Shown in pieces: positions 6,244 through 23,300 of a stretch of 64,000 nucleotides of DNA. The stretch lies in assembly GCF_009925085.1 (NCBI RefSeq), contig NZ_JAABNR010000005.1, forward strand, positions 1 through 64,000. Direction: 5' to 3'. Below the pieces are notes generated by a model. That model was not told where the DNA came from and ran no database searches. It saw only the letters and a list, made by a program, of their open reading frames with translations. A program made the translations under genes and the position numbers. The DNA is from Stagnihabitans tardus. GTDB lineage: Bacteria; Pseudomonadota; Alphaproteobacteria; Rhodobacterales; Rhodobacteraceae. Position 1 is the stretch's first letter. Each line of letters begins with the position of its first letter.

Positions 6244-6296
6244 GGGAACCTCCTGTTTCGATCAGTAACGATCAAGATTGCGATTGACAAGCTTCG

Positions 6297-6309: not shown

Positions 6310-6318
6310 ACCACGGAT

Positions 6319-8114: not shown

Positions 8115-9131
8115 TTAGACCGAGTCCTGCGATCCGAACCGCAGCTCTGTGCGGAAGCGCTGCCCCGGCTCCAGCCACACCACCTGGCCATCCCGCATCG
8201 CCTGGGCTCGCCCGTCGGGCCGCGCCGTGGCTGGGAGCGCGAAACCCATGGCCTGGAACCCCGGATGCCGCGCCATCCAGCGCACCAGGTGGGGCAGGTC
8301 TGCGGGCTTCCAGGCCACGACATCGGCGTGCTTCCCATCGACCTGCCGCGCCTCGGTCCAGCCATCCGCCCCCGCCTTGGGCGCAAGGGTGAGGACCATG
8401 TCGCGCACCTCGGCCTCGGCGCCCGGGACGATGCGGTGAAAGCCCGGGTCCTTTTCCACCTGCGCATACCAGGCCAGGGCCGCCGCCGTGTCATGGGCAT
8501 TGGGCGGGCGGCGGTGGATCGCCCGGTCGTCCTCTTGCGCATCGGTCAGCCGCGCGCCCGGCACGGGGCGGAAGTTCACATGGGCGAGGTAGAAGAAGGG
8601 CATCCGGCCCCCGCCGATGTTCTCGACCTCGAGGCTTGCATGAAACAGGCTCTCCCCCTCATGCAGCCGCAGCCTCGGCCGGAAGGCAAAGGCATGCCCG
8701 AAGGCGACGCGGTCCAGGGCCTCGCCCGACAGCTCCACATAGCGGCCGACCTGGTCCTGGCCGAAATGCAGCTCGGCGCGGGCATAGGGGATGTTCGGGA
8801 GCTCCCCATGCAACGGGTGATCGTCGCCCGGCCCCGGATTTCCCAAAGAGGTCCCGCCGCAATGCAGGAAGAAGCCGCCATAGGTGCGCAGGTAATCGCG
8901 GGTCGCCACGGGGGCCGTGAACCCCGTCTCCATCGTCAGCCTGCGGCCCTGAAAGGTCGCGTCCCAGACCTGCTGACCCTGGAACGGCAGGAGGATGACC
9001 CGCCCTGCGCCGTTCTCGATCTCCAGCGCCTGCACCCCGGTGGGATAGGTGAAGGCCCTCACCACAATGGCGCCGTTGCGGGCCAGGAGGCGGTCGGTGA
9101 AGAGGTCGGGATAAAGCGGGAGCGTCGTCAA
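8115..9131 (-). CDS. DUF4432 family aldose-epimerase-like protein
   Basis: A 338-residue galactose-mutarotase-fold protein of the DUF4432 type. Visible words include RVILLPFQGQQVWDATFQGR, the TYGGFFLHCGG segment with HPLHGELPN, and FFYLAHVNFRPVPGA, which match the family's beta-sandwich. The likely role is anomerisation or epimerisation of an unusual sugar. The start is a TTG at 9131, with a gagg site upstream; no ATG occurs near the N-terminus. It lies 83 bases downstream of the lacI-type gene on the same strand and may be co-transcribed with it. Confidence 0.8.
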   Translation of the reverse strand: MTTLPLYPDLFTDRLLARNGAIVVRAFTYPTGVQALEIENGAGRVILLPFQGQQVWDATFQGRRLTMETGFTAPVATRDYLRTYGGFFLHCGGTSLGNPGPGDDHPLHGELPNIPYARAELHFGQDQVGRYVELSGEALDRVAFGHAFAFRPRLRLHEGESLFHASLEVENIGGGRMPFFYLAHVNFRPVPGARLTDAQEDDRAIHRRPPNAHDTAAALAWYAQVEKDPGFHRIVPGAEAEVRDMVLTLAPKAGADGWTEARQVDGKHADVVAWKPADLPHLVRWMARHPGFQAMGFALPATARPDGRAQAMRDGQVVWLEPGQRFRTELRFGSQDSV

Positions 9132-9214: not shown

Positions 9215-10201
9215 CTAGTCCTCCGGGATATTCTCGCGGAAGATGATGTGCTGGCGGGGCGGGATCGGCGTATAGGCCTCGCCGCGCAGGGCGGCGGTCA
9301 GGCAGGCCAGCGCCTCGCGCGCCTCGACCCTTGGGTTCTGGTCGATCACGGCATCCATCGTGCCATCGAGGAGCATCGCCTTGTTGCCCGGAGTCGCCTC
9401 ATGGCCGATGAGCACGATCTTGCCCGCCAGCCTCCGGTCCTTCAGCGCCTGGCCGATGCCGTAGCTGCCCGCGCCCACGTTGTAGATCGCGGCAAGGTCG
9501 GGGTGGCGGTCGATCAGGGCCAGGGTCTCGGCGCGGGCCTTCTCGCGGTCGTCCAGCATTTCGCGCAGCTCGACCACCTGAAGCTCGGGGAAATCCTCGT
9601 GCAGCACCTGGCGGAAGCCCATCTCGCGCTCCTGGTGGCCGCGGTAGGACAAGGACCCCGCCATCAGCGCCACCTTGCCCTGACCGCCCAGGAAGCGCCC
9701 CAGGACATGGCCCGCCAGCCGCCCGGCCTGGGCATTGTCGGTGCCGATATAGGCGATGCGCGGGGTGCTTTGGATGTCGGAACACAGCGTCACCACCTTG
9801 ACCCCCGAGGCGCAAAGCCCCCGGATCGCCTCGCGCACCAGGGGATGGTCCAGCGCAATCACCCCCAGCCCATCGACCGTGCCCCTGAGCCCCGCAATCC
9901 GGGCGGCAAGGGCAGAGGGATCGAAGCCCTCAAAGGTCTCGACCCGCGTCGCGACGCCTTCCGGGGCCTGGGCCTCGATCTGGGCGCGCAGCATCTGGAT
10001 GAAGGTATTGGTGCCCTGCGGCAGAAGGAAGGCCAGGCGCAGCGTCGGAGTGGCGCGGTCGATATAGCCCAGCCGCCGGGCCACGGCCAGGACATGGGCG
10101 CGGGTATGTTCCTTGACGCCAGGGCGTTCGTTCAGAACCCGGTCCACGGTTGCAGGCGAGACCCCGGCTTCGCGGGAAATGTCGGTCAGGGTGGCGCGCA
10201 T
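9215..10201 (-). CDS. LacI family transcriptional regulator
   Basis: A 328-residue repressor. The LacI headpiece is at the N-terminus (TLTDISREAGVSPATVDRVLNERPGV), followed by the hinge and a periplasmic-binding-protein-like sugar sensor (TLRLAFLLPQGTNTF, IALDHPLVREAIRGL, YIGTDNAQAGRLAG). The start MRATLTDI at 10201 is preferred over an upstream codon because it directly precedes the headpiece. It is divergent from the dual-ATPase importer operon at 10527, which it very likely controls, with several AAAATGATT words in the shared gap. Confidence 0.93.
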   Translation of the reverse strand: MRATLTDISREAGVSPATVDRVLNERPGVKEHTRAHVLAVARRLGYIDRATPTLRLAFLLPQGTNTFIQMLRAQIEAQAPEGVATRVETFEGFDPSALAARIAGLRGTVDGLGVIALDHPLVREAIRGLCASGVKVVTLCSDIQSTPRIAYIGTDNAQAGRLAGHVLGRFLGGQGKVALMAGSLSYRGHQEREMGFRQVLHEDFPELQVVELREMLDDREKARAETLALIDRHPDLAAIYNVGAGSYGIGQALKDRRLAGKIVLIGHEATPGNKAMLLDGTMDAVIDQNPRVEAREALACLTAALRGEAYTPIPPRQHIIFRENIPED

Positions 10202-10526
10202 CGTGTCTCCTCTGCCCTGAGGTAGGGCCAAGGCGCAGGGTTTTCAACAGGCGGTGTGGGTGACCTCAAAATGATTATTTTTCCATCTTTGCCCTTCGGC
10301 GCTGTGGTCTGGACTTGGATCAAGCACTTGGATTCCGGCCGATTTCTGCGTCGTGGTGTGTTGGAGCTGCGAAGAATCAGCGGAATCCCTTCATAGTGAC
10401 GCCAATTCATGCCAATGCAATCATCTTTTTGATGTTAAAGAGTGACGAAAATGATTGACTCATGCCTTGGGCCTCCCGCATAAACCCTCCTCACAGGCTT
10501 CGGGAGAAAGCCTTTGGGAGGAACCA
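10202..10526. promoter_or_regulatory. Divergent control region between lacI-type gene and importer operon
   Basis: This 325-base gene-free stretch is AT-richer than its surroundings. Three copies of a related word occur: caaaatgatt at 10267-10276, caatcatctttt at 10418-10429 and its inverted partner gaaaatgattga at 10447-10458. The last two form a dyad about 70-110 bases before the SBP start at 10527. They are candidate LacI-type operators. A gggagg ribosome site lies at 10516-10521. I see no open reading frame worth calling here. Confidence 0.5.
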
Positions 10527-12116
10527 ATGATCCATCGCATGACCCGGCGCGGCCTGATCAAGGCCAGCGCCAAGGCAGGACTTCTGGGCGCCGGCGCGCT
10601 CTTTGCCCCTCGCTTCATCGGCCAAGCCTGGGCGGCAGAGCTCGCCCCCGGCATGATCGGTGGCCCCACGGGCTTTGACGGCGCCGAGACCTATCAATAC
10701 GGCCCCGACACGCCCGAGGGCCGCGCCATCGAGGGCGCCCGCGCGCTCAAGGCCAAGGGCGTCGACAAGATCGTCGTCGGCCTCTCGGATGGCTCGATCG
10801 GCCAGTTGACCCAGCCCTTCCCCGCCGGCGCCCCCTCGATCAAGGAGCTTTGGGAGCGCGAAACCGGCATCACGCTCGAGATCGTGGGCCTGCCGAACGG
10901 GCAGGAATTCACCAAGACGATGCAGGATATTTCCACCTCTGCGGGCGGCTTCGACATCTATTCGACCGACTGGAACCGGCTGGGCGACCTCGCCGAGTCC
11001 GGCGGTATCGCGAAACTCGACGACTATGTCGCGGCCTACAAGCCCGAGTGGGACGATGCCGAGAATGGCTATGTCGGTGGCGCCCAGGGCGTGGCGCTCT
11101 TGAACCAGTATCGCGGCGCGACCTATGGCGTTTCGCTGGACGGCGACTTCCAGACCTGGGTCTACCGCACCGACCTCTTCGGCGATGCGAAAGAGCAGGC
11201 CGACTTCAAGGCCAAGACCGGCCGCGACCTGGCCGTGCCCAAGACCTGGGCCGAGCTCGACGAGGTCGCGGCCTTCTTCACCCGGCCCGACAAGGGCATG
11301 ATCGGCTGTTCCGACCTGCGCAACCAGGGCTGGGGCTATACCAACTGGGTGCAGCGTTTCACCTCGATGGGCAATCCGAACCAGTTCCTCTTTGCCGAGG
11401 ACGGGACGCCGCTCATCAACTCCGAGGCCGGGATTGCGGCGACCAAGGAATACGTGGCCTCGCTGGCGGTCCATTCGCCGGATGCGATCTCCTGGGGCTG
11501 GCCGGAGCAATATGGCTCCTTCGGCCAGGGCAATACGGCGATGACCTGCGCCTTCTCGAACCTGCCGAAGTTCCTGGACAATGCGGGCAACACCGGCAGC
11601 GTCGTCACCGGCAAGGTCGGCTCCATGCTGCCCCCGGGGCGCGAGGTCGGCGGCGGCCTCATCCGCCGCTCGGTCCTGTGGTTCTCGCTGACCGGCATGG
11701 TCTCCAGCCAGTCGAAGAACCCGGAGGCGGCTTACCTCTTGCTGCAATGGCTGGGCTCGGCGCGGATCTATGCCTGGATGACGGCCAACCCGGGCGGCTA
11801 TTTCGACCCCTTCCGGCTCTCGGACTTCAAGGACCCGCTGGTCCGCCAGACCTACCACGCCTACCACATGGACGTGGTTCGCGAGACGGTGGCCCGCACG
11901 GTCCCCACGATCAACTACGCGGGCGCGACCGCCTATCACAACGCCCTGGACGAGAACCTGATGGCGGCGCTCACGGGCGCCAAGGCCCCGGAACAGGCCA
12001 TGGCGGATGTGGAAACCGAATGGGCCAAGATCACCCGCCGCACGGGGGAAGAGAAGGTCATCGAGGCGATCAAGGCCAACCGCGCCGGCTGGCCCACCCT
12101 GGTCGACCCGGTCTAA
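10527..12116 (+). CDS. ABC importer substrate-binding protein, Tat-exported (CUT1)
   Basis: A 529-residue family 1 extracellular solute-binding protein, longer than the usual 410-450. A twin-arginine signal is visible (TRRGLIKASAKAGLLGAGA, cleavage near AWA-AE), so it is exported folded. The start MIHRMTRR at 10527 has a gggagg site six bases upstream. Downstream genes supply two permeases and two ATPases. The size and the two-ATPase setting recall the rhizobial glycerol importer GlpSTPQV, but the adjacent catabolic genes point to a cyclitol or sugar. The substrate is not known. Confidence 0.88.
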   Translation: MIHRMTRRGLIKASAKAGLLGAGALFAPRFIGQAWAAELAPGMIGGPTGFDGAETYQYGPDTPEGRAIEGARALKAKGVDKIVVGLSDGSIGQLTQPFPAGAPSIKELWERETGITLEIVGLPNGQEFTKTMQDISTSAGGFDIYSTDWNRLGDLAESGGIAKLDDYVAAYKPEWDDAENGYVGGAQGVALLNQYRGATYGVSLDGDFQTWVYRTDLFGDAKEQADFKAKTGRDLAVPKTWAELDEVAAFFTRPDKGMIGCSDLRNQGWGYTNWVQRFTSMGNPNQFLFAEDGTPLINSEAGIAATKEYVASLAVHSPDAISWGWPEQYGSFGQGNTAMTCAFSNLPKFLDNAGNTGSVVTGKVGSMLPPGREVGGGLIRRSVLWFSLTGMVSSQSKNPEAAYLLLQWLGSARIYAWMTANPGGYFDPFRLSDFKDPLVRQTYHAYHMDVVRETVARTVPTINYAGATAYHNALDENLMAALTGAKAPEQAMADVETEWAKITRRTGEEKVIEAIKANRAGWPTLVDPV

Positions 12117-12164
12117 GGCGCCCGCGATCCGGGCCCCCATCCGGGCCCTGATCTCGGCCCCGAT

Positions 12165-12190
12165 CCTGGCGCGGTCCCATACGCGCCAGG
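12165..12190 (+). promoter_or_regulatory. Intercistronic hairpin between SBP and permease
   Basis: A perfect 9-bp stem (cctggcgcg / cgcgccagg) with an 8-base loop in the 134-base gap between the SBP and first permease genes. There is no T run. Hairpins at this position usually protect or terminate most transcripts so that the binding protein is made in excess. Similar hairpins lie at 33518-33539 and 51919-51944. Confidence 0.55.
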
Positions 12191-12250
12191 GTCGCATCCA
12201 TCTCCTCGACTGGGGGAGGCCCCGTCCTCCCCCCCTTTCCCCGGACACAC

Positions 12251-13099
12251 ATGACCCGCGCGATCCTCCGCACCCTGGCCATCCTGGCCGCCCTGGCCGT
12301 GACGCTGATCCCGATCCTGTGGATGGTGTCGATGGCCTTCAAACCGCCCTCGGAATGGCAGGCGGCGGGCGAGGCCCTGACCTGGGTCCCCCGCGCGCCG
12401 ACCCTGGACAATTTCCGCTATCTCTTCGGCCAAGGCGGGTCCGACCTGATCGCCACGCTGGACCGGACGGCGGTCAAGCCGATCCTGTCCTCGCTTCTCT
12501 CGGCCTCGGTGGGCACGCTGATCGCCATGACCTGCGGGACCGCCGCCGCCTATGGGCTGAGCCGCTTTGGGTCCGGCGCCAACCTGCCGCTCGCGCTGAT
12601 CCAGTTGCGGCTCTTCCCGCCCATGGCCGTCATGATCCCGGTCATGATGATGTGGGCCTTCCTGGGCCTGATGGACACCTGGTTCGGCCTGGCCCTGGTC
12701 TATGGCATCGTGACCCTGCCCTTCGCCTTCTGGCTGATGAAGACCTTCTTCGACGACATGCCCAAGGAAATCGAGGAGGCAGCCCTGGTCGAGGGCTGCA
12801 CGCGGTGGCGCGTCTTCACCCGCGTCACCCTGCCGATGATGGCCGCCCCCTTGGCCGCCGCATCGCTCTTCGTCTTCATCCTGAACTGGTCGGACTACCT
12901 GATCGCGCTTTTGCTGACCACGCGGGAGTGGGTGACGATCCCGGTCTACATGGCCTCGCTGTCCTCTTCGATGACCGGTCAGCTTTACGGGGCGAAAGCC
13001 GCCCTGGGCCTGATCGCCGCCGTCCCCCCCGTGGTGCTGGGCGTCCTGATCCAGAAGCACCTGGTCCGCGGCCTGACCTTCGGAGCGCTGAAGCAATGA
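12251..13099 (+). CDS. Sugar ABC importer permease (MalG type)
   Basis: A 282-residue inner-membrane permease with about six membrane segments, beginning [20 protein letters not shown]. The ATPase-contact EAA loop is visible as [17 protein letters not shown] followed by TLP. It ends TFGALKQ, as CUT1 permeases of the MalG branch do. The stop overlaps the next permease start (ATGA), so the two are translationally coupled. The order MalG-type before MalF-type is the reverse of the more common arrangement. Confidence 0.9.
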
Positions 13100-13953
13100 A
13101 ACTCGGTCTCCGCCTTACCCTTCCGGCCCAGGTCCTGGTCCTCTTCATCTCGGTCTTCCCGCTGCTGATGCAGCTTTACATCTCTCTGACCGACTGGTCG
13201 CCCCTGTCGGGCGCGCCCTGGCCTCGCGCATGGGAGTTCTGGAACAGCTTCGCCAATTACACCGACATTCCCGGCGACCGCCGCCTCTGGGCCGCCCTGG
13301 GCCGCACGCTTCTGGTCATGGTGATCTGCGTGCCGGTGGAGTTCCTCCTGGGCCTCGGGCTTGGGCTTTTGTTCGTCGAGGATTTCCCGGGCAAGAAGCT
13401 GGCCTATTCCATCCTGATCATGCCGATGATGGTCGTGCCTGCGGTGGCGGGCTACATGTTCTTCATGCTCTTCCAGTCCGGGGGGCCGGTGAATGACCTG
13501 CTCTCGGTCTTCGGCCCGGTCACCATCGCCTGGCTCTCGGACCCCTGGCTGGCCCTCGTCGCCGTCATGGTCGCCGACATCTGGCAATGGACGCCCCTGA
13601 TGTTCCTGATCCTGCTGGCGGGCCTGGTGGGCGTGCCGCAAGACCAACTCCGCGCCGCCACCCTGCTGGGCGCCAGCCCCTGGCAAAGGTTCCGCACCAT
13701 CACCCTGCCGCGCATGAAAGTCATCATCACCATCGCCTTGGCCATCCGCGCCATCGAGGCCTTCAAGATCTTCGACACGCTTTACATCATGACCGGCGGA
13801 GGCCCCGGCGTCGCCACCGAGACCATCTCTGTCTATTTCTACAAGATCACCACCAATGACCTGATCTGGGGCTATGTCGCGGCGCTCGCGCTCTTCATCC
13901 TGGTCTCGCTGTCCATCGCCGCCCAATTCGCGATGAAGAGGATGGCCCGATGA
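13096..13953 (+). CDS. Sugar ABC importer permease (MalF type)
   Basis: A 285-residue membrane permease. The N-terminal hydrophobic segment [20 protein letters not shown] is followed by five further membrane segments, with the EAA-type loop [19 protein letters not shown] and TLPRM. The [17 protein letters not shown] segment near the C-terminus is typical of MalF-like CUT1 permeases. It starts within the previous stop and its own stop overlaps the ATPase start, so permeases and ATPases are tightly coupled. Confidence 0.92.
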
Positions 13954-14975
13954 CCGCCATCCATCTGCAAGGCCTGACGAAACGCTTCGGCCCCTTCACC
14001 GCGCTGCAACCCATGGACCTGGAGATCCGGGATGGCGAGTTCCTGGCGCTCCTTGGCCCCTCGGGCTGCGGGAAGTCCACCACGATGAACATGATCGCGG
14101 GGATGGAGAAGCCCACGGGAGGGCGCATCCTGTTCGGCGACCGCGACATGGGCGCCGTCCCGATGGCGCGGAGGGGCGTGGGCTTCGTCTTCCAGAACTA
14201 CGCGATCTTCACCCATATGACGGTGCGGCAGAACCTGGATTACGGGCTGCGCATGGCCGGGGTGGACCCGGGGCCGCGCACCGCTGCCATGGCCGAGCTT
14301 CTGGGCCTGACCGACCTCCTGGACCGGCCGTCGCAGGGCCTTTCGGTCAATATCCTGCAACGCCTGGCCATCGGGCGCTCGGCCATCATGGAGCCCGCGA
14401 TCTTCCTTTTGGACGAGCCCCTGTCCAACGTCGACGCCGCCTTCCGCGCCGTGATGCGGACCGAGCTGAAATCGCTGCAACGCCAGTTCCGGCAGACCAT
14501 GGTTTACGTGACCCATGACCAGCTCGAGGCCATGACCATGGCCGACCGCATCGCCGTCATGGATCACGGCGTGTTGCAACAGGTGGGCACCCCGCTTCAG
14601 GTCTATAACCGCCCGGCCAATACTTTCGTGGCGCGGTTCCTGGGCGCTCCGGGGATGAACCTCTTGCCGGGGCATGCGGTGCAGTCGGGCAGTGCGGTGC
14701 AGGTGGACCTCGGGCCCATCGGTCTGACGCCGCCCCTGCCGGGCCCGGCCTCGGGGCCGGTGACCTATGGCTTCCGCCCCGAAGAGGTCACGCTTGACCC
14801 CGCCTCGCCGCTGAAACTGCCTGTCACCCATGTCGAACGGATCGGCGCGCGCTGCATCGTCCACCTTGGCCCCGTGAAGGCCGTCTTCCCGGCGGGGACC
14901 GAGATCCCCTCGGGCGTCGTGGGCTTCACCCCCGGCAAACCCTGCCTCTTTGACGCCAAGGGGGGGCGCATCTGA
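13950..14975 (+). CDS. MalK-type ATPase with a degenerate signature motif
   Basis: A 341-residue ATPase of the CUT1/MalK class: Walker A GPSGCGKST (residues 36-44), Q-loop FQNYAIF, Walker B FLLDEP with the catalytic Glu at 156, switch His 189, and a C-terminal regulatory TOBE domain. The ABC signature, normally LSGGQ, reads LSVNI (131-135), while the flanking residues are normal. The neighbouring ATPase at 14975 has an intact signature but an altered Walker B. The two are therefore expected to form an asymmetric heterodimer. Coupled to the permease by ATGA. Confidence 0.92.
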   Translation: MTAIHLQGLTKRFGPFTALQPMDLEIRDGEFLALLGPSGCGKSTTMNMIAGMEKPTGGRILFGDRDMGAVPMARRGVGFVFQNYAIFTHMTVRQNLDYGLRMAGVDPGPRTAAMAELLGLTDLLDRPSQGLSVNILQRLAIGRSAIMEPAIFLLDEPLSNVDAAFRAVMRTELKSLQRQFRQTMVYVTHDQLEAMTMADRIAVMDHGVLQQVGTPLQVYNRPANTFVARFLGAPGMNLLPGHAVQSGSAVQVDLGPIGLTPPLPGPASGPVTYGFRPEEVTLDPASPLKLPVTHVERIGARCIVHLGPVKAVFPAGTEIPSGVVGFTPGKPCLFDAKGGRI

Positions 14976-15955
14976 TGGCCTCCATCGAATTCCGCAATGT
15001 CTGCAAGAGCTTCGGCACTGTGAAGGCCGTGGTCGATGCCAGCTTCAAGGTCGAGGACAACGCCTTCTTCTGCCTCTTTGGGCCGCCGCTCTCGGGCAAG
15101 ACCACGATCCTGCGGCTGATCCTGGGGCTGGAAACCCCCGACAGCGGCGAGATCCTGATCGACGGCAAGCCCGCCCTTGGCGTGGCCGAGCGCAATGTGG
15201 CCATGGTCTTCCAGAACCTCGCGCTCTTCCCCCATATGACCGCGCGCGACAACATCCGCTTTCCCCTGGTCGAACGCCGCCAGCCCGAGGCGCAGATTGC
15301 GCCCCGTGTCGCCTCGGTCGCGGAGAAGCTGCACATCACCCATATCCTGCACAAGCACCCCGGCCAGCTTTCGGGCGGGGAGCGTCAGCGGGTGGCCATC
15401 GCCCGCGCCCTGGTGCGGGACCCGGCGGCCTATCTGATGGACGACCCGATCTCCGCCCTGGATGCGCGCCTGCGCGAAGAGGCGCGGGTCGAGTTGAAGC
15501 GCATCCAGCGCGAGGCCGGGCGGACCCTGGTCTATGTCACCCATGACCAGGAAGAGGCCATGTCGGTCGCCGACCAGATGGCCGTTTTGGACCAGGGCCG
15601 GATCGTGCAGATCGGCACGCCTTCGGAGTTGTATGACCGCCCCCAGACGCCCTATGTGGCGCGGCTCCTGGGCTCTCCGCCGATGAACCTCTCGACCTCG
15701 GGCGCCTTTGGCCCGGGTCAGGTCGGCATCCGCCCCGAGGACCTGACCGTGACGCAATCTGACACAGGCGCCGCGCTGATCACCGGGGTGGAGCCCTTGG
15801 GCGGTTACACCGTCCTGACCCTGGCCCAAGGCCCCGAGACCTTTCGGGCGCTGTTGCGCGGTCAGCCGGAGGTCTCCCCCGGCACCCGCGCGACGCTTTC
15901 CGCCACCAAGACCCATCCTTTCACCGCAGACGGCCACCGCCAGACAGGAGCCTGA
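14975..15955 (+). CDS. MalK-type ATPase with altered Walker B
   Basis: A 326-residue MalK-class ATPase. Walker A is GPPLSGKTT (36-44) and the signature is a normal LSGGERQR (132-139). The Walker B reads AYLMDDPISALD, with Asp at 157 in place of the catalytic Glu. Switch His is at 190, followed by a shortened TOBE domain. It overlaps the preceding ATPase by one base (TGATGG). Paired with that protein, one composite ATP site is canonical and the other doubly degenerate. Two distinct ATPases per CUT1 importer are known from GlpST of the rhizobial glycerol system. Confidence 0.92.
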   Translation: MASIEFRNVCKSFGTVKAVVDASFKVEDNAFFCLFGPPLSGKTTILRLILGLETPDSGEILIDGKPALGVAERNVAMVFQNLALFPHMTARDNIRFPLVERRQPEAQIAPRVASVAEKLHITHILHKHPGQLSGGERQRVAIARALVRDPAAYLMDDPISALDARLREEARVELKRIQREAGRTLVYVTHDQEEAMSVADQMAVLDQGRIVQIGTPSELYDRPQTPYVARLLGSPPMNLSTSGAFGPGQVGIRPEDLTVTQSDTGAALITGVEPLGGYTVLTLAQGPETFRALLRGQPEVSPGTRATLSATKTHPFTADGHRQTGA

Positions 15956-15956
15956 C

Positions 15957-17021
15957 ATGGACTTCCGCCCCGACCCCGAAATCCGCTCGAAATCCCTGCC
16001 CATCGGCTGCATCGGCGCAGGCATGATCATGGCCGAATGCCACCTCGCCGCCTATGCCATGGCGGGCTTTCCCGTGGTGGCCATCGCCAGCCGCACGAAG
16101 GCCAAGGCGGAAGCAGTCGCCGCGCGTTATGGCATCCCCAAGACCCATGCGACGCCGCAAGACCTGATCGAGGATGCGGGTGTCGCGATCCTGGACATCG
16201 CCTACCCGCCCGACCTGCAACCGGCCCTGATCCGGGCGGCGCTGAAGCAGCCCCATATCAAGGCGATCCTGGCGCAGAAGCCGCTGGCCCTGACGCTGGA
16301 AGAGGCCCGGGCGCTCCGCGACGAGGCGGCAGCGGCGGGGAAGCTCCTGAGCGTCAACCAGAACATGCGCTATGACCAGTCGATGCGGGTGCTGAAGCAG
16401 ATCCTTGACGCGGGGATCCTGGGCACCCCGGTCTTCGCCCAGATCGACATGCATGCCATCCCGCATTGGCAGGACTTCCTGAAGGGCTACGACCGCCTGA
16501 CCCTGTCGAACATGTCGGTCCATCACCTGGACGTCATGCGCTTTCTGTTCGGAGAGCCCGAGAGCATCACGACCCAGACCCGCACCGATCCCCGCACGAG
16601 CTTCCCCCACCAGGACGGTATCACGATATCAACTCTGCGCTTCAAGGACGGACTGCTGGCGCTTTCCCTGGAGGATGTCTGGTCCGGCCCGCGTGAGGCA
16701 GGCTATCCGGACGACCAGCACATCACCTTCCGGGTGGAGGGGACCCTGGGCGTCGCCAAGGGCTCGATCGGCTGGCCGAATGGCAAGCCCTCGACCCTGA
16801 GCTACGCCACCAAGGCCAGTGGCGCATGGATCACGCCCTCCTGGGAGACCCATTGGTTCCCCCATGCCTTCATCGGCGTGATGGAGCAGCTGCAACACGC
16901 GGTCGCCACCGGCACCGAACCCGCCCTGACCGTGGCCGACAATGTGAAAACCGTGGCCCTGGTCGAGGCCGGTTACCGCTCCATCGCCCTGAACCGCACC
17001 GTTCAACTGTCTGAAATCTAA
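15957..17021 (+). CDS. Gfo/Idh/MocA family NAD(P)-dependent oxidoreductase
   Basis: A 354-residue oxidoreductase. The Rossmann motif GCIGAGMIMAECHLAAY is at the N-terminus, followed by a substrate domain with SNMSVHHLDVMRFLFGEP, carrying the family His-Asp pair. The usual EKP triad around residue 105 reads QKP here. The family oxidises ring hydroxyls of inositols, inosamines and sugars; rhizopine-related MocA is a founding member. It starts one base after the ATPase stop, so it belongs to the importer operon and should act on the imported compound. Confidence 0.92.
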   Translation: MDFRPDPEIRSKSLPIGCIGAGMIMAECHLAAYAMAGFPVVAIASRTKAKAEAVAARYGIPKTHATPQDLIEDAGVAILDIAYPPDLQPALIRAALKQPHIKAILAQKPLALTLEEARALRDEAAAAGKLLSVNQNMRYDQSMRVLKQILDAGILGTPVFAQIDMHAIPHWQDFLKGYDRLTLSNMSVHHLDVMRFLFGEPESITTQTRTDPRTSFPHQDGITISTLRFKDGLLALSLEDVWSGPREAGYPDDQHITFRVEGTLGVAKGSIGWPNGKPSTLSYATKASGAWITPSWETHWFPHAFIGVMEQLQHAVATGTEPALTVADNVKTVALVEAGYRSIALNRTVQLSEI

Positions 17022-17033
17022 AGGGAGGCAAAC

Positions 17034-17945
17034 ATGTTCCAATCCGGCATCTTCACCGGCTATTTCCCCTATGGTCTGGAGGAATCGGCCCGTCGCATCC
17101 GCAGCCACGGCTTCAACACCGTGCAGCTGGACCTGCATTTCAAGGACATCGATTTGGGCTTCGGCCAGATCACCAAGGCCAAGGCCAAACAGGTCCGCGA
17201 CACGTTCCGAAACCATGACCTGCCGATCTGCTGCATCAGCGGTTACACCAACATCATCCACCCCGACCTCGCCCACCGCAAAGCCAATATGGAGCGGCTG
17301 AAGGAGATCATCCGCTGGGCGCGGGAGTTCGGAACGCCTTATGTCATCTCGGAAACCGGCACCTTCAACACCGAATCCGAATGGATGTCGGACCCGAAGA
17401 ACAAGAGCCAGGAGGGTTTCGACCTCTGCGCCGCTGCCATCAAGGAGCTGTCCCAGGTGGCCTATGACCACGGCGCGCAGTTCCTCTTGGAGACCTATGT
17501 GAACAACGTCGTGGGCAGCGTCGAAGAGACGGTGAAGATGTTCGCCGCCGTCGATCACCCGGGGCTTGGCCTCTTGATGGACCCGACCAACTACTTCGAG
17601 GACCACAATATCGACAACATGGACGGGGTCTTGAACCAGGTCTTCGACACGCTCTCCGACAAGATCAAGATCGCCCATGCCAAGGACGTGGCCCGGGCCA
17701 AGGATACCACCGAAAAGCACGCCGATATCGGCGATGACGACGCGCTCGCCTCGCATACCTTCCGGGGCGTGGGTGCCATTGCGCTCGATGCGCCGGGGAT
17801 GGGGGTCTTGAACTATGACCTCTATCTTCAGCGGCTGGCGCAGAAGCACCCGAATATCCCGATCATCGTGGAACACCTGGACGAGGCCGATGTGCCCCGG
17901 TCCAAGAAATTCCTTGAAGACAAGATGCGCGCGAACGGATTGTAA
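17034..17945 (+). CDS. Sugar-phosphate isomerase/epimerase-type TIM barrel (IolE/MocC-like)
   Basis: A 303-residue AP-endonuclease-2-type TIM barrel. Probable divalent-metal ligands are visible as LETYVNN, LMDPTNYFE, IAHAKDV and IVEHLDEAD. This family includes IolE/IolI of inositol catabolism and rhizobial MocC. An aagggaggc ribosome site precedes the ATG at 17034. It follows the MocA-type dehydrogenase, so it probably isomerises or dehydrates the keto product. The exact reaction cannot be assigned from sequence. Confidence 0.87.
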   Translation: MFQSGIFTGYFPYGLEESARRIRSHGFNTVQLDLHFKDIDLGFGQITKAKAKQVRDTFRNHDLPICCISGYTNIIHPDLAHRKANMERLKEIIRWAREFGTPYVISETGTFNTESEWMSDPKNKSQEGFDLCAAAIKELSQVAYDHGAQFLLETYVNNVVGSVEETVKMFAAVDHPGLGLLMDPTNYFEDHNIDNMDGVLNQVFDTLSDKIKIAHAKDVARAKDTTEKHADIGDDDALASHTFRGVGAIALDAPGMGVLNYDLYLQRLAQKHPNIPIIVEHLDEADVPRSKKFLEDKMRANGL

Positions 17946-17953
17946 TGGCGAAA

Positions 17954-17977
17954 GGCGCGCCCGGAGGAGGGCGCGCC
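17954..17977 (+). promoter_or_regulatory. Intercistronic hairpin
   Basis: A perfect 9-bp stem (ggcgcgccc / gggcgcgcc) with loop ggagga between the TIM-barrel stop at 17945 and the DUF4432 start at 17992. No T run follows, so it is more likely an mRNA-stability or processing hairpin than a strong terminator. Confidence 0.55.
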
Positions 17978-17991
17978 ACTTCGGAGGAATG

Positions 17992-19167
17992 ATGCCCAAG
18001 CTTTACGGAGAAACCCTGTCGCGGCTGGATTTGGCGCGCATGTCCGGCGACGCCCGCGCCTTTGGCGGCGTCCGGCTGATGACGCTCGGCGATGGGCTGG
18101 AGCGCGGCATCCGCCTGCTGGAGTTCCGCGCCGGGTCCTTGCGGTTCACGGTGGCCGTCGACCGTGCCATGGATATCCTGGAGCTGGAATGGCAGGGCGT
18201 GCCCTTGCACTGGTCGGGGCCCTCGGGCCTCCGCTCGGCCAGCCTGCATGAATATGAAGGCGAGGGCGGGTTTTCCTGGGGCCGCAGCTTTACGGGCCTC
18301 CTGGTGACCTGCGGGCTGGACCACACTTTGGGCCCGGCGGAAGTTCCGGCCAGCAATTACAACTATCCCGGGGTCAAGACGATCCGCCACGGGCTCCATG
18401 GCCGCGTCTCCACGATCCCCGCCCGCCTGACCGGCTATGGCGAGCGTTGGGAGGGCGACCGCTGCATCCTTTGGGCGGAAGGCGAGATCCGCCAGGCCGC
18501 GACCTTTGGCGAGAACCTGACGCTGTATCGCCGCATCGAATGCGACCTGGGTTCCCAAGAGATCCGGCTGTCAGATCGGGTCGTCAACACCGGCTTTCTG
18601 AACACGCCGCATATGTTCTTCTACCACGTCAACCTCGGAGCCCCCCTCTTGGCCGAGGGCGCCCGCTACCTCGCCCCCATCACCGACACGCCTTGGGCCG
18701 CCCATGAGGCCCGCTACCGCGACCAGGGCGTCGGCTATCAGACCATCCCCGCCCCGCAGCGCCACTTCTCCGAACAGGTCTGGCAGCACGAGACCAAAGC
18801 CGACCCCCAGGGCGAGACCCATGTGGCCCTGGTCAACCCGCGCCTCGGCCTCGGCTTCATGGTGACGACGCGCAAGGATCAGCTCCCCTGCCTTTACGAA
18901 TGGCAGCACTTCCAGGAGGGCGGCTATGCTTTGGGGATCGAGCCCTCGACCCATCATGTGCTGGGCGACACTGCCGCGCGGGACCGCGGCGAGATGATCT
19001 GGCTCGGCCCCCAGGAAGAGCGCCGCTACGACAGCCGCTTTACCGTCCTGACCGACCTTGGCGCGGCGGAGGCCCGCATCCGCGCCATCCATCCCCAACC
19101 GCAAGATGATTACCCGCAGCCCTCGGGCCACTTCCGCCCCCTGACGGGCCGCCCGCAGAAAGAGTAA
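17992..19167 (+). CDS. DUF4432 family aldose-epimerase-like protein
   Basis: A 391-residue galactose-mutarotase-fold protein of the DUF4432 family: FTVAVDRAMDILELEWQG, then GLLVTCGLDHTLGP, TIRHGLHGRVSTIPARL, HMFFYHVNLGAPLL and YEWQHFQEGGYALGIEPS. It is longer than the 338-residue paralogue at 8115-9131. Of two overlapping ATGs (17989 and 17992) I choose the second, five bases after the ggagg site. It lies between the TIM barrel and the desaturase-like gene, so a catalytic step (epimerisation or ring opening) in the same pathway is likely. Confidence 0.85.
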   Translation: MPKLYGETLSRLDLARMSGDARAFGGVRLMTLGDGLERGIRLLEFRAGSLRFTVAVDRAMDILELEWQGVPLHWSGPSGLRSASLHEYEGEGGFSWGRSFTGLLVTCGLDHTLGPAEVPASNYNYPGVKTIRHGLHGRVSTIPARLTGYGERWEGDRCILWAEGEIRQAATFGENLTLYRRIECDLGSQEIRLSDRVVNTGFLNTPHMFFYHVNLGAPLLAEGARYLAPITDTPWAAHEARYRDQGVGYQTIPAPQRHFSEQVWQHETKADPQGETHVALVNPRLGLGFMVTTRKDQLPCLYEWQHFQEGGYALGIEPSTHHVLGDTAARDRGEMIWLGPQEERRYDSRFTVLTDLGAAEARIRAIHPQPQDDYPQPSGHFRPLTGRPQKE

Positions 19168-19170
19168 GCC

Positions 19171-20271
19171 ATGCCCCTGGATCAAACCGTCACCCAACGC
19201 GATTACACGCTGACCGGGCCCTCTTCCGAGAGGGCGCGCGAGCTCGGCCTGGCCTCGGCCGAATGGTATCACTCCGACATCCCCCGCAAGGTGATGAAGG
19301 AGCTTATGGCGCGGAAAGACGGCCCCGCGATCCGCGATACGGTGATCTGGGTGGTCGCCCATGTGCTGACGGCCTGGGGAGGCATCCACTTCTGGGGGAC
19401 CTGGGCCTGCGTGCCCTTCTGGATCGCTTACGGCGTGCTGTATGGCTCGGCTTGCGACTCGCGCTGGCATGAATGCGGCCATGGCACTGCGTTTCGGACG
19501 GCCTGGATGAACGATGTGGTCTACCACATCGCCAGCTTCCAGGTGATGCGCAATCCCGTGTCGTGGCGCTGGAGCCATGCCCGCCACCATACCGACACGA
19601 TCATCGTGGGCCGCGACCCCGAAATCGGCTGGATGCACCCGGTCTCGCTCTTCATGAAGCTCCTCAGCTTCACCTCGATCATCGATGCCTGGGTCTCGTT
19701 GAAGATCCTCGCCCGCAACGCCATGGGCAATTTCACCACCGATGAGCGTGATTACATCCCGGCGTCCGAGCTGCCCAAGGCCGTTCTTGCCGCAAGGGTC
19801 CATATGGCGATCTATGCGGCGACGGTGCTCGCCGCCGTCGCCTGGCAAAGCTTCATACCCTTCATGCTCATCGGCCTGCCGAGGCTCTACGGCTGCTGGC
19901 ACATGTATATGACCGGCCTCATCCAGCATGGCGGCCTCGCCGAAGACGTGCTGGACCACCGCCTGAACTCCCGCACCGCCTATATGAACCCCGTCAGCCG
20001 CTGGATTTACTGGAACATGAATTACCATGTCGAACACCACATGTTCCCCATGGTGCCCTATCACGCGCTCCCGCGCCTGCATGAGCTGGTGAAGGCGGAT
20101 TACCCCGCGCCTTGCCCCTCGATCTGGGCCGCCTATGCCGAGATGATCCCCGCCGTGATCCGCCAGCGCCACGAGCGCGGCTATTTCCTGAAAAAGACCC
20201 TGCCGCCGACCGCCCGCCCCTACCGCGAGGACCTGCAGCCCCCCGCCCCCACCCGAGAGGAGATGCGCTGA
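19171..20271 (+). CDS. Fatty-acid-desaturase-fold diiron oxygenase (MocD-like)
   Basis: A 366-residue integral-membrane enzyme with the three histidine boxes of the PF00487 fold: HECGH (100-104), HARHH (136-140) and HVEHH (286-290), plus hydrophobic segments near 56-95 and 210-240. Such enzymes use a diiron centre and O2 for hydroxylation or desaturation. The adjacent Rieske ferredoxin overlaps its stop by one base and is the likely electron donor. That pairing and the setting match mocD-mocE of rhizopine catabolism, where an O-methyl group is removed oxidatively, so lipid desaturation is the less likely role. Confidence 0.88.
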   Translation: MPLDQTVTQRDYTLTGPSSERARELGLASAEWYHSDIPRKVMKELMARKDGPAIRDTVIWVVAHVLTAWGGIHFWGTWACVPFWIAYGVLYGSACDSRWHECGHGTAFRTAWMNDVVYHIASFQVMRNPVSWRWSHARHHTDTIIVGRDPEIGWMHPVSLFMKLLSFTSIIDAWVSLKILARNAMGNFTTDERDYIPASELPKAVLAARVHMAIYAATVLAAVAWQSFIPFMLIGLPRLYGCWHMYMTGLIQHGGLAEDVLDHRLNSRTAYMNPVSRWIYWNMNYHVEHHMFPMVPYHALPRLHELVKADYPAPCPSIWAAYAEMIPAVIRQRHERGYFLKKTLPPTARPYREDLQPPAPTREEMR

Positions 20272-20576
20272 TGTGGGTTACCGCCTGCGCCCTTGACGAT
20301 ATCGACACCGAAGACCTGGTCCGCTGGGATCATGACGGCCGGACCTTTGCGATCTACCGCGACACCAAGGGCGCGGTCTTTGCCACCGACGGGCTTTGCA
20401 CGCATGAAAACGTGCATCTCTGCGACGGTCTGGTGATCGGCGACCAGGTCGAATGCCCGAAACACAACGGCCGCTTCGACTATAAAACCGGAGAGGCCAA
20501 GCGCCTGCCCTGCACGGCGCGGCTGAAGACCTGGGCCACGCGCGTCGTGGATGGGAACGTGGAGATCGACCTATGA
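20271..20576 (+). CDS. Rieske 2Fe-2S ferredoxin (MocE family)
   Basis: A 101-residue soluble Rieske ferredoxin. The cluster ligands are C43-x-H45 (CTH) and C62-x2-H65 (CPKH), with a 16-residue spacing. It is the size of stand-alone Rieske ferredoxins that serve oxygenases. It starts in the last base of the desaturase-like stop and ends overlapping the PanB-like start, so all three are co-translated. It should pass electrons to the diiron enzyme. No ferredoxin reductase (MocF equivalent) is encoded in the window, so this must be borrowed from elsewhere. Confidence 0.93.
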   Translation: MWVTACALDDIDTEDLVRWDHDGRTFAIYRDTKGAVFATDGLCTHENVHLCDGLVIGDQVECPKHNGRFDYKTGEAKRLPCTARLKTWATRVVDGNVEIDL

Positions 20577-21364
20577 GAAAGCGCCCGACCGTCGCCGACC
20601 TCCGCGCGCTGAAGGGGAAGAAGCAGCTGACCATGCTGCGCATCTTCACCGTGGAGGAAGCCGCCGCCGCCGAGGAGGCCGGGATCGATGTGGCCTCGGT
20701 GCCGCCCTCGCTGATCCGGCATCCCGATTTCCGCCAGGCGGCTCCGGGGATCTTCGCCATGACCGGGGTGGATCACCGCGAGATGGGAAGCCGCGAGGAT
20801 TACCTGCGGCTCTCCTGCGAGATGCTGATGAAAGGCGCCGATGCGATGTATTGCTCGGCCAGCCTGGAGACGGTGAGCTATCTCGCCCGGGAGCATATCC
20901 CGATCGTGGGCCATGTGGGCCTCGTGCCCTCGCGCGCGACCTGGACCGGGGGCTTCAAGGCGGTGGGCAAGACGGCGGAGCAGGCCCTGGCGCTGCTGCG
21001 CGAATGCCAGGCCTACGAAGATGCCGGCGCCTTTGCGGTCGAGATCGAGGTCGTGCCGGAGGAAGTGGCCTCCGAGATCAGCCGCCGGATGAAGAAGCTG
21101 CTTCTTTGGTCGATGGGGGCCGGGGCGGGCTGCGATGTGCAGTATCTTTTCGCCATGGATATCCTGGGTGAGCACAAGGACCACATGCCGCGCCACTCCA
21201 AGGTCTATCGCAACTTCGCCGCCGAATATGACCGGCTTCAGCGCGAGCGCGTGGCGGCCTTTGCCGAGTTCAAGGCCGATGTCGACGAGGGGCGCTTCCC
21301 CGAGGAGCGCTACCTGGTGAAGATGGACCCAGGCGAGCTGGCGAAGTTCAAGGCGGCGCTCTGA
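20573..21364 (+). CDS. PanB-like (ketopantoate hydroxymethyltransferase superfamily) enzyme
   Basis: A 263-residue paralogue of 3-methyl-2-oxobutanoate hydroxymethyltransferase. The C-terminal half aligns well by eye with PanB (IPIVGHVGLVPSRA, GGFKAVGKTAEQA, AVEIEVVPEEVA with the catalytic Glu, and a VDEGRFPEE tail). In the N-terminal half the metal-binding GDS motif reads PPS, and the positions of the second Asp and of the substrate Lys are not conserved. It is therefore unlikely to make ketopantoate. Cleaving or transferring a one-carbon or aldol fragment in the neighbouring pathway is the best guess. ATGA overlap with the ferredoxin gene. Confidence 0.82.
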   Translation: MRKRPTVADLRALKGKKQLTMLRIFTVEEAAAAEEAGIDVASVPPSLIRHPDFRQAAPGIFAMTGVDHREMGSREDYLRLSCEMLMKGADAMYCSASLETVSYLAREHIPIVGHVGLVPSRATWTGGFKAVGKTAEQALALLRECQAYEDAGAFAVEIEVVPEEVASEISRRMKKLLLWSMGAGAGCDVQYLFAMDILGEHKDHMPRHSKVYRNFAAEYDRLQRERVAAFAEFKADVDEGRFPEERYLVKMDPGELAKFKAAL

Positions 21365-21393: not shown

Positions 21394-22050
21394 TCACGCC
21401 ACCCCCAGGTTGCGGTTCAGCGCATTGGTCAGGTGGCGGGCCATGGCGGCCTCGGCCTGGGTCTCGTCGCGGATCAGGCAGGCGGCGATGACCTCGCGGT
21501 GTTCGCCCACCGACACCAGGGCGGCCCTTGGATAGACCGCCGCCTTGACCCTGATGATCCGCGCCATCAGTTGCAGGCGGCGGTAAGATGCGTCCACCAA
21601 CTCGTTGCCAAGGGCCGCGATGATCGTGGAATGGAAGGCGCCTTCCAGCTGCGAAAGCCTTGGCCCCACATCGGCATTGGGATCGGCGGCGGCAAAGCCC
21701 TCGGCGGCGGTGTCATGCAGCGCCATCATGTCGCGCAGGACGGGCTCCGGCGCGGTCATGGCAAAGGCGCGGGCGGCGGGACGCTCCAGCATGGCGCGGA
21801 ACTGGTAAGTCTGGCGCACCAGGTCGGTTGATCGTCCAATGACCTGGATCCCGCTGCGAGGATGAACCGTGACGATGCCATCGGCCTCGAGCAGTTTCAG
21901 CGCGTCGCGCACCGGGCCCAGGGGCACTCCGGTCACCGCGATCAGCGCGCCTTGCGTCAGACGCGCGCCCATCGCAAGGCGGGCGTCGAACAGCGCCTCG
22001 AGGATGCGCTGATAGGCAAGGTCGGAGAGGAGGGGCGTGTCGTGTTTCAT
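21394..22050 (-). CDS. GntR family regulator (FCD/FadR-type)
   Basis: A 218-residue regulator with an N-terminal winged helix (SDLAYQRILEALFDARLAMGARL...GVPLGPVRDALKLLEADGIV) and a helical FCD ligand domain containing RAMLERPAARAFA, QLEGAFHSTIIAALGN and the late HREVIAA. The FCD domain usually binds a small acid with a metal. It is divergent from the enolase-superfamily gene, and the gap contains an 11-bp-arm palindrome that is its probable operator. It is convergent with the PanB-like gene (30-base gap). Confidence 0.93.
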   Translation of the reverse strand: MKHDTPLLSDLAYQRILEALFDARLAMGARLTQGALIAVTGVPLGPVRDALKLLEADGIVTVHPRSGIQVIGRSTDLVRQTYQFRAMLERPAARAFAMTAPEPVLRDMMALHDTAAEGFAAADPNADVGPRLSQLEGAFHSTIIAALGNELVDASYRRLQLMARIIRVKAAVYPRAALVSVGEHREVIAACLIRDETQAEAAMARHLTNALNRNLGVA

Positions 22051-22096
22051 GACCTAAGGGTAACGGGAGGCTTGTGCGGCGGCAATAGATGTGATT

Positions 22097-22120
22097 GGCT
22101 ATCTGATAAATCAGATAGCC
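22097..22120. promoter_or_regulatory. Palindromic GntR operator
   Basis: Perfect inverted repeat with 11-bp arms (ggctatctgat / atcagatagcc) around a central aa. It lies in the 86-base gap between the divergent GntR gene (starts 22050) and the enolase-superfamily gene (starts 22137), ending 16 bases before the latter. FadR/VanR-branch GntR proteins bind such palindromes. No Shine-Dalgarno fits between the operator and the 22137 ATG, so transcription may start inside or just after it and give a leaderless message. Confidence 0.8.
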
Positions 22121-22136
22121 AGCCTGAGTCGATCAA

Positions 22137-23279
22137 ATGCACCCCTGCGCCATCAAGGACTTTACCCTGACGCGGTTCCAGTTTCGCCGCGATCGGGTCA
22201 TCGGCGATGCCCAGGTGAAGTTCGACACGTTCAACGCCCTGGCCCTGGAGCTTTCGGATGGCGCGGGCCATACCGGTCTGGGTTTTGCGCATTCCATGTG
22301 GGACGCGATGCCCTCCTTGGCCGCGCTGACCCAGACCTTCACGACCCATCTCTGGCCCGGGCTTGACGGAAAGCAGCCCGGCGCCCTGATCCACCGGATC
22401 GAGCGACCCCGGGGCGGCAATCAGCGTGACACGACTTACGGCTTCGCAGAGGCTTTGCAGATCGCGCTTTGGGACCTCGCCGCGCAGCAGGCGGGGCTGC
22501 CCCTGTCGGATTACCTCGGCGGCAGTCGCAGGACATCGCCCGTCTATGCCTCGGGGCTGGACTATCACATGACGGATGCCGAGTTCAGCGCCTTTTTCAC
22601 CCGCGCGGCGGACCTCGGCTTCACCGCCTTCAAGATCAAGGTCGGCCCGGATGCGGCTTGGAACCTGCACCGTCTCGACCTCCTCCGCCAGGCCGTCGGA
22701 CCACAGGCCGGCGTCATGGTGGACGCCAACGAGACCTGGAGCGCCAAGGAGGCCTCTGCGCAGCTCCACCTCTTTCACCGCGCGGGTCATCACCTGGTCT
22801 GGGCCGAAGACCCGATCCTGCGGACCGATTTCGACGGGTTGAAGGCGCTGTCGGCCGCCTGCCCCTGGACGCAGATCAACGCGGGCGAATATCTCGACGC
22901 CCCCGGTCGCGCGCGGCTGTTGATGGCGCGGGCCACCGATATCATCAATGTCCATGGCCGCATCACCGAGGTCATGCACACCGGCTGGCTGGCCGCCGAA
23001 CTGGGCATCCCGGTCGCGCTGGGCAACACCAACCTGGAAATCGGCGTCCATACCGCCTGCGCCTTGCCGGAAGTGCCCTGGCTGGAATACTCCTTCCAGA
23101 ATTACGACCACCTGGTCGAAGAGCCCTTCCGCATCCATGCCGGCGAGATCCATGTGCCCGACCGCCCCGGTCTTGGCCTGACGCTCTCGCAGGCCGCAAG
23201 GACCACCTGGTCGGCCCCCGAGCCACTGCAAGAGCTGCAAACCGGACCTGATTGCCAATTGTTTCAACCCCGGGCCTGA
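22137..23279 (+). CDS. Enolase-superfamily acid-sugar dehydratase/epimerase (MR/MLE type)
   Basis: A 380-residue mandelate racemase/muconate lactonizing enzyme family member. Visible: Lys-x-Lys at 166-168 (KIK), Mg ligands D196 (with N198), E224 (AEDP) and E251 (NAGEY). The His-Asp dyad of mandelate racemase is missing: by eye the Asp position is in NVHGR and the His position is Asn in VALGNTN. A Lys-based dehydratase, epimerase or cycloisomerase on a sugar acid is therefore likelier than a racemase. It heads an operon with a binding protein and two permeases and is presumably repressed by the divergent GntR protein. Confidence 0.88.
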   Translation: MHPCAIKDFTLTRFQFRRDRVIGDAQVKFDTFNALALELSDGAGHTGLGFAHSMWDAMPSLAALTQTFTTHLWPGLDGKQPGALIHRIERPRGGNQRDTTYGFAEALQIALWDLAAQQAGLPLSDYLGGSRRTSPVYASGLDYHMTDAEFSAFFTRAADLGFTAFKIKVGPDAAWNLHRLDLLRQAVGPQAGVMVDANETWSAKEASAQLHLFHRAGHHLVWAEDPILRTDFDGLKALSAACPWTQINAGEYLDAPGRARLLMARATDIINVHGRITEVMHTGWLAAELGIPVALGNTNLEIGVHTACALPEVPWLEYSFQNYDHLVEEPFRIHAGEIHVPDRPGLGLTLSQAARTTWSAPEPLQELQTGPDCQLFQPRA

Positions 23280-23300
23280 CCGGGACGGGAGGAGGACCCC

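Follow-up and report, generated by a model that had tools for sequence, protein, structure and literature searches.

The first 64,000 nucleotides of contig NZ_JAABNR010000005.1 of Stagnihabitans tardus, here called the window, contain an operon of eleven genes, all on the forward strand between positions 10527 and 21364 (Table 1; open reading frames and starts were checked). Coding sequences overlap at five junctions (13096/13099, 13950/13953, 14975, 20271 and 20573/20576). This gene set and its overlapping one-strand layout, described in a first-pass annotation made from the sequence alone, are borne out by the open reading frame and family checks. A CUT1-type importer is followed by a Gfo/Idh/MocA dehydrogenase, a triosephosphate isomerase (TIM)-barrel protein and a DUF4432 protein, and then by a MocD-type membrane diiron oxygenase, a MocE-type Rieske ferredoxin and a paralogue of ketopantoate hydroxymethyltransferase (PanB). 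It is moderately probable that this operon joins a sugar cassette to a separable module for oxidative O-demethylation; the module's demethylating activity, its substrate, the electron donor and the role of the PanB paralogue are all predictions.

Table 1. Genes of the operon and two neighbouring genes on the opposite strand
Feature	Positions	Strand	Family match or remark
Second DUF4432 (aldose-epimerase-like)	8115..9131	-	PF14486, E 1.3e-25; same strand as lacI; outside the range of the first-pass annotation
LacI-family regulator	9215..10231	-	PF00356/PF13407; divergent to the operon; outside the range of the first-pass annotation
Solute-binding protein, CUT1-type (label is an interpretation)	10527..12116	+	SBP_bac_1 PF01547; best PDB match 5iai, sugar ABC transporter, E 4e-12
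Importer permease 1	12251..13099	+	BPD_transp_1 PF00528
Importer permease 2	13096..13953	+	BPD_transp_1 PF00528; start checked
Importer ATPase 1	13950..14975	+	ABC_tran PF00005; UgpC/MalK-like, below cut-offs
Importer ATPase 2	14975..15955	+	ABC_tran PF00005 + TOBE_2
Gfo/Idh/MocA dehydrogenase (sugar cassette)	15957..17021	+	GFO_IDH_MocA PF01408, E 2.5e-16; best PDB match 5uhw, 100 bits
TIM-barrel sugar epimerase/hydratase-like enzyme (sugar cassette)	17034..17945	+	AP_endonuc_2 PF01261, E 1.4e-27
DUF4432, aldose 1-epimerase-like (sugar cassette)	17992..19167	+	PF14486, E 5.7e-94; start 17989 or 17992
MocD-type membrane diiron oxygenase (module)	19171..20271	+	FA_desaturase PF00487, E 1.1e-34
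MocE-type Rieske ferredoxin (module)	20271..20576	+	TIGR02377, 153.4 bits (cut-off 136.15)
PanB paralogue, proposed one-carbon transfer enzyme (module)	20573..21364	+	Pantoate_transf PF02548, 131 bits

The diiron protein carries the histidine boxes HECGH, HARHH and HVEHH and adjoins a MocE-family ferredoxin, an arrangement of the mocDEF type. The mocDEF system removes the O-methyl group of rhizopine. The moc reference used here is a cluster on plasmid pRLa11 of Rhizobium leguminosarum A1 (L150), in which Gfo/Idh and sugar-binding protein genes diverge from a MocR-type gene of the pyridoxal phosphate-dependent aminotransferase family, followed by MocD, MocE, a flavin adenine dinucleotide reductase (mocF), a PanB paralogue and purU. 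The order mocA-B / R-D-E-F is the published one in the available parts of the sources (PMC6668481, PMC10107442), and L150 was therefore taken as the moc cluster, by gene order and not by comparison with strain L5-30. In the R. pisi genome of L093, a search for MocD and MocE returned that locus's own unit and one MocE match far below the cut-off, and so did not recover the moc cluster published for R. pisi. The Phyllobacterium locus L014 was rejected as a rhizopine cluster, its desaturase standing in a different setting.

Against this reference the window MocD is 61.0% identical over 349 residues, MocE 61.2% over 98 residues and the PanB paralogue 57.2% over 257 residues, confirming the earlier assignment of a MocE-type ferredoxin paired with a three-histidine-box diiron enzyme. 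In a tree of 41 proteins, which contained no characterised lipid desaturase, the window MocD and moc MocD share a group that is resolved only in part; two further PF00487 proteins of the host (contigs C3 and C7; L298 and L300) lie outside this group, while the third (L299), with its very long branch, could not be placed. The first-pass annotation had named clustering with acyl-lipid desaturases as counter-evidence; the tree bears on this through the two placed host proteins, from which the window MocD stands apart. Since the diiron and Rieske proteins are close to moc MocD and MocE and the diiron protein groups with MocD, the sequences are best read as pointing to oxidative O-demethylation of a polyol or sugar ether. 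This agrees in part with the earlier proposal, although not as a dedicated amino-cyclitol moc pathway, and no support was found for its alternative of oxidative ring opening by the diiron enzyme. In the available parts of two sources, mocDEF is described as a ferredoxin-oxygenase system of rhizopine catabolism (Bahar 1998, as cited in PMC5789663 and PMC5132102).

The PanB gene was earlier placed outside moc, which agrees with the published gene list but not with L150, where a PanB paralogue and purU lie directly after mocF. The window protein scores below the panB equivalog (90.9 bits against a cut-off of 207.55, aligned over residues 97–246). Its structure model (predicted local distance difference test, pLDDT, 83) nevertheless has the PanB fold, with a TM-score of 0.73 to 3vav, and H114 and E159 align with the conserved histidine and glutamate of solved PanB enzymes, residues taken here to match catalytic ones. 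E157 and E159 are kept in 181/181 sequences and H114 in 180/181.

The paralogue occurs in 83/394 genomes of the host's family (threshold 1e-30), and its surroundings were surveyed in a census of 132 of the 139 listed places, with about 6.5 kb fetched on each side. Left out were four rows of the host genome (examined separately), G274:C114 and G073:C5 (adjacent to fetched rows) and the contig-end fragment G142:C143; the overlapping region pairs L186/L215 and L218/L227 are counted separately. Neighbours were annotated by tblastn against reference proteins, which diverged genes can escape, and contig ends shorten some regions. At least one of MocD, a PF04116-type oxygenase and MocE lies within about 6.5 kb in 119/132 PanB loci (MocD in 74, a PF04116-type oxygenase in 40, MocE in 84), and in 93/132 the gene directly adjoining PanB on the same strand is one of them. 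The linkage is found in 22/22 loci with at least 55% identity to the window protein, 54/56 at 45–55%, 13/15 at 40–45% and 30/39 below 40%. MocD of at least 38% identity is present in 61 PanB loci, where about 0.14 would be expected by chance, a rough figure obtained without a random-anchor control from about 124–127 close MocD rows and a mean genome size taken as 3.9 Mb; for any MocD-type protein the 74 loci compare, on the same rough footing, with at most about 2 if there were five per genome. MocD, MocE and PanB thus form a recurring unit, to which a demethylating activity may be assigned. The loci L252, L254, L260 and L275 hold distant PanB-like proteins (about 36–40% identity) with no oxygenase or ferredoxin near.

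The host genome (4.59 Mb, 99.76% complete) encodes four PanB paralogues in the strong range, in four MocE-PanB units, two of which have PF04116 proteins instead of MocD. A second MocD-type gene (60% identical), on contig C36, is accompanied by a TIM protein, a CUT2 importer and a PanB paralogue, and this unit resembles inositol-linked genes of Marivivens (77/67/76% for the importer and 56% for the TIM protein; L141). The two operons without MocD (C36 = L141, C21 = L143) combine a PF04116 FA_hydroxylase with a CUT2 importer, Gfo/Idh and TIM proteins, a MocE-type ferredoxin (at 128.4 slightly below the TIGR02377 cut-off of 136.15 in the C36 unit) and PanB, and account for two of the three PF04116 genes of the host. 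On pSymA of Sinorhizobium meliloti RU11/001 (L149), matches to LacI, a PF04116-type protein, MocE, a binding protein and a reductase stand in a row with no PanB match. A partner shared by two oxygenase families and varied importers should act on a common one-carbon product; its distribution therefore fits a one-carbon step and not action on one substrate. Genes of folate one-carbon metabolism adjoin some of the units: PanB is followed by purU in L150 and by purU and folD in L013, both genes lie within the L154 cluster, and purU occurs in L058, L061 and L066. The L150 purU passes the TIGR00655 cut-off and the L013 folD its curated cut-off. Three IolD-type genes above the curated cut-off were also seen in the host (C1, C2 and C21), one of which shares its contig with a PF04116-MocE-PanB operon.

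The window TIM protein is found in 9 of the 394 genomes of the host's family (E 1e-50), and in 5 of these nine, the window included, a MocD gene lies beside it. In the other four (L294–L297) LacI, Gfo/Idh, TIM and DUF4432 are all present, with a CUT1 importer in L295 and L296 and a CUT2 importer in L294, and no MocD, MocE or PanB match occurs in 18 kb. In the same genomes the PanB paralogue is absent at 1e-30, as is a close MocD (none, or a best E value of 6e-26 or weaker). The sugar cassette thus exists on its own in other genomes, and the core pathway therefore does not need the diiron protein, the ferredoxin or PanB, which argues that the sugar used by the cassette is itself unmethylated and that the module adds to the range of compounds it can take. 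Conservation of the operon without the diiron-ferredoxin pair, which the first-pass annotation had named as speaking against its own reading, is hence partly found. In L295 and L297 a coenzyme A transferase-like gene, judged by its start, follows the cassette on the side that MocD-MocE-PanB occupy in the window.

The identities first proposed for two cassette proteins did not survive comparison. The Gfo/Idh protein matches L150 MocA at 28.8% over only 191 residues, on which MocA orthology was rejected, and scores 94.9 bits against the iolG equivalog (cut-off 355). The TIM protein gives no match to the L150 IolE-like protein at E 1e-4, and IolE is not among its NCBIfam matches. Its structure model (mean pLDDT 76) is closest to D-tagatose 3-epimerase and UlaE, with YcjR and 3-keto-glucal hydratase (AtHYD) lower among the top 50 (12–18% identity); YcjR (6wn6) ranks 36 with E 1.1e-10 and 17% identity, a match at the level of fold alone. 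Its scores are far below the cut-offs of the NCBIfam epimerase models that it matches. A MocC/IolE identity was rejected on these sequence and model comparisons, with the L150 protein as reference in place of L5-30 MocC. The operon DUF4432 protein best resembles 3ty1, a putative aldose 1-epimerase (E 2.4e-25). Because the TIM model lies near sugar 3-epimerases and DUF4432 resembles an aldose epimerase, a keto-sugar route appears likelier than a cyclitol route.

The complete operon recurs elsewhere. In L020 all eleven genes stand in identical order at 63–87% identity (59% for LacI), and the gene set is found, with variations, in other Rhodobacterales and in Mesorhizobium; the operon is therefore not a chance assembly. 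Among the named MocD loci (the best 80 of 557 relatives, some on short contigs; near means within 9 kb of MocD), 20 contain the window TIM protein at 74–87% identity. Importer parts, Gfo/Idh, TIM, DUF4432 and MocD occur together in twelve of these (L020, L023, L025, L045, L055, L058, L061, L063, L066, L067, L068 and L090), ten of which also have MocE and PanB; L025 is without both and L023 without MocE. An extra CUT2 importer lies between TIM and DUF4432 in 10 of the 20. The statement that no MocF-type reductase is present holds for the window operon but not for its Mesorhizobium versions L061 and L066, in which such a reductase lies between MocE and PanB, with purU after PanB. Relatives of the window LacI regulator (49–63% identity) adjoin related operons in L020, L021, L023, L030, L046, L050, L068 and L070. 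Separately, MocD and PanB genes are adjacent in L022, L023, L041 and L070, where no ferredoxin match lies between the two or anywhere within 9 kb, and a 348-residue protein without a Pfam match (L009:17172-18218 and relatives) is MocD-linked in 15/80 named loci, often behind a CUT2 importer.

In the proposed pathway, the importer would bring in a sugar carrying an O-methyl group, a methyl glycoside or a polyol ether of similar kind, and NAD(P)H would supply electrons, by way of a reductase encoded elsewhere and then MocE, to the diiron centre of MocD. The best genome match to the MocDE-linked reductase of R. johnstonii (42% over the full length; C11:23639-24850) is a candidate for this reductase. 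MocD would hydroxylate the O-methyl group, giving a hemiacetal that releases the free sugar hydroxyl, and the PanB paralogue would take up the one-carbon unit, either as free formaldehyde or as a hydroxymethyl group, and place it on tetrahydrofolate as methylene-tetrahydrofolate, which FolD/PurU-type enzymes could convert to formate. The demethylated sugar would then be oxidised, probably to a keto-sugar, epimerised and degraded by the LacI-regulated cassette of CUT1 importer, Gfo/Idh, TIM and DUF4432 proteins. A broader and more tentative suggestion, regarded as possible rather than probable, is that PanB-annotated proteins of this family are one-carbon transferases of oxidative O-demethylation that take the hydroxymethyl group from PF00487 and PF04116 oxygenases without free formaldehyde and are exchangeable across sugar and cyclitol pathways.

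Several observations weigh against this pathway. No ferredoxin reductase is encoded in the operon or linked to it in the window. The partners are not indispensable in cis, as MocE is near in 61/80 and PanB in 44/80 named MocD loci, with neither in 9/80; several Mesorhizobium loci have MocD-MocE-reductase without PanB, and in the annotated stretch of Nitratireductor MocD-MocE-reductase-purU stands without PanB. Conversely, in 13/132 PanB-like loci, 9 of them below 40% identity, neither an oxygenase nor a ferredoxin lies in reach, and purU or folD is found in a minority of places (3/80 named and 4/132 census loci). The residues D84, K112 and E114 of E. coli PanB (1m3u), presumably the metal site together with D45, align with G65, Y93 and S95 of the paralogue, and 32/181 sequences have aspartate at the weakly aligned D45 position; with these canonical residues changed, a folate reaction cannot be read from homology. 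PanB has been listed as a possible formaldehyde-to-tetrahydrofolate enzyme of E. coli, but deletion of panB and ltaE neither changed growth nor abolished the assimilation, so that this step can be spontaneous (PMC7073904, in the part available).

A fairly unlikely alternative keeps the genes together and changes the chemistry: the diiron enzyme would hydroxylate a ring or side-chain carbon, and the PanB paralogue would be a C–C lyase acting on a downstream keto-acid by retro-aldol cleavage in the style of the isocitrate-lyase superfamily. Once the PanBs themselves are passed, aldolases and lyases of the isocitrate-lyase type are among the structures that the PanB model matches next, and the retention of E157, E159 and H114 without the metal-site residues fits an altered chemistry. 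However, the MocD-MocE-PanB set stands in a moc-type cluster with adjoining purU and with folD and purU in L013 and L154, and the sharing of PanB by modules with different importers and oxygenase families points to a common small product and not to a sugar-specific lyase.

The idea from which the analysis started, a moc-like operon for an O-methyl (amino) cyclitol whose ring would be processed by MocA and MocC/IolE-type proteins as in rhizopine use, draws on the identity of MocD and MocE to the moc cluster and on related units inside inositol operons. The window operon nevertheless departs from moc (mocCABRDEF of S. meliloti and R. leguminosarum), with which it shares the 61% MocD and MocE proteins and the PanB paralogue that follows mocF in A1: there is no MocF and no MocA or IolE-like orthologue, LacI stands in place of MocR and an SBP_bac_1/CUT1 importer in place of MocB/CUT2, and DUF4432, which a cyclitol should not need, is added. 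As the separate host MocD unit already matches the inositol-linked Marivivens genes and DUF4432 is present here, inositol is less likely than a sugar as the substrate, and the cyclitol account as a whole is distinctly improbable. An ordinary acyl-lipid desaturase and ferredoxin that happen to lie beside a sugar operon would agree with the Pfam name FA_desaturase and with a weak NCBIfam DesB match (26.7 against a cut-off of 500); the placement of the diiron protein with moc MocD, away from two of the three other host PF00487 proteins in a tree that held no characterised lipid desaturase, its start/stop overlaps with MocE and PanB and the recurrence of the whole operon with the diiron gene make this very improbable. 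A sugar cassette carrying an O-demethylation module is thus retained as the preferred interpretation.

Related units elsewhere indicate which ethers might be handled. In Marivivens LCG002 and Rhizobium Q54 the neighbours of MocD-MocE units include iolG, iolC, iolD and a CUT2 importer (the Marivivens iolG and iolD pass their cut-offs); such units adjoin iolG and iolC in Marivivens JLT3646 and iolG in Nitratireductor. S. meliloti 2011, presumably a close sister of strain 1021, has a MocE match on its 1.68-Mb replicon, and pSymB of strain ml28 carries a full MocD-MocE-reductase-PanB unit. Strain 1021 is reported, in the available part of the source, not to use rhizopine (PMC8343143), and such S. 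meliloti units therefore probably serve methyl ethers other than rhizopine. The available text on rhizobial mocDEF describes neighbouring LacI and epimerase genes and suggests an inositol derivative (PMC3538637), and mocDEF homologues are described in part of another source as induced by Mimosa root exudate, in which pinitol was most concentrated (145 uM final in medium; PMC5789663).

Outside the operon, the second DUF4432 protein is 27% identical to the operon copy over 233 residues, and a simple-palindrome search for LacI operators gave nothing consistent. An Rfam match to the Ruegeria Cis90 small RNA (11623-11853, reverse strand; 63.1 bits, gathering threshold 50) lies antisense to the binding-protein gene and may be a real antisense RNA or a trace of conserved coding sequence. 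Downstream (21394-25384), genes for a GntR (FCD) regulator and an enolase-superfamily protein are followed by sugar-binding-protein and permease-like reading frames; the GntR-enolase pair also adjoins the same operon type in L030, L046 and L158 and may handle a sugar acid further along the pathway. Upstream of the second DUF4432 gene (5200-8030), inspection of the reading frames alone suggests genes for a DeoR-type regulator and for a SIS-domain protein (sugar isomerase).

Plants and algae commonly contain sugars and cyclitols as methyl ethers, and to our knowledge O-demethylation of such compounds by diiron-type systems is known mainly from rhizopine genetics. The window PanB paralogue shares the fold and the aligned histidine and glutamate of ketopantoate hydroxymethyltransferase and differs from it in score, in the residues at the presumed metal site and in being found with oxygenases. 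Several rhizobial mocDEF units also have a PanB paralogue beside them; no paper linking PanB paralogues to mocDEF or demethylation was found among the open papers searched, and in the text available the terms panB and ketopantoate do not occur in PMC3538637, nor ketopantoate in PMC5789663. Units of mocDEF outside moc, as far as the available parts of the sources describe them, lie beside FixV-type LacI regulators in rhizobia (PMC3538637) and beside xylA2 in Pseudomonas syringae (PMC5132102). They share the oxygenase-ferredoxin pair with the window, the rhizobial ones also a LacI and a TIM-barrel neighbour, but contain the reductase mocF that the window operon lacks. The sugar part recalls the E. 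coli ycj cluster (ABC importer, two sugar dehydrogenases, the epimerase/isomerase YcjR and the LacI-type repressor YcjW), which, in the part of the source available, differs in having phosphorylases and a phosphoglucomutase and in listing no oxygenase (PMC11543891), the window TIM protein being only 17% identical to YcjR. The proposed chemistry matches that of marine Flavobacteriia, in which 6-O-methyl-D-galactose is oxidatively demethylated with release of formaldehyde; that system uses a cytochrome P450 with redox partners instead of a membrane diiron protein and Rieske ferredoxin, and the available text mentions no PanB paralogue (PMC10033563). If the proposed function is correct, the module would be widespread and movable, the use of methyl-inositols would become a likely function of rhizobial mocDEF loci outside moc, and a family whose present name is that of a vitamin-biosynthesis enzyme would be renamed, with its role in one-carbon capture directly testable.

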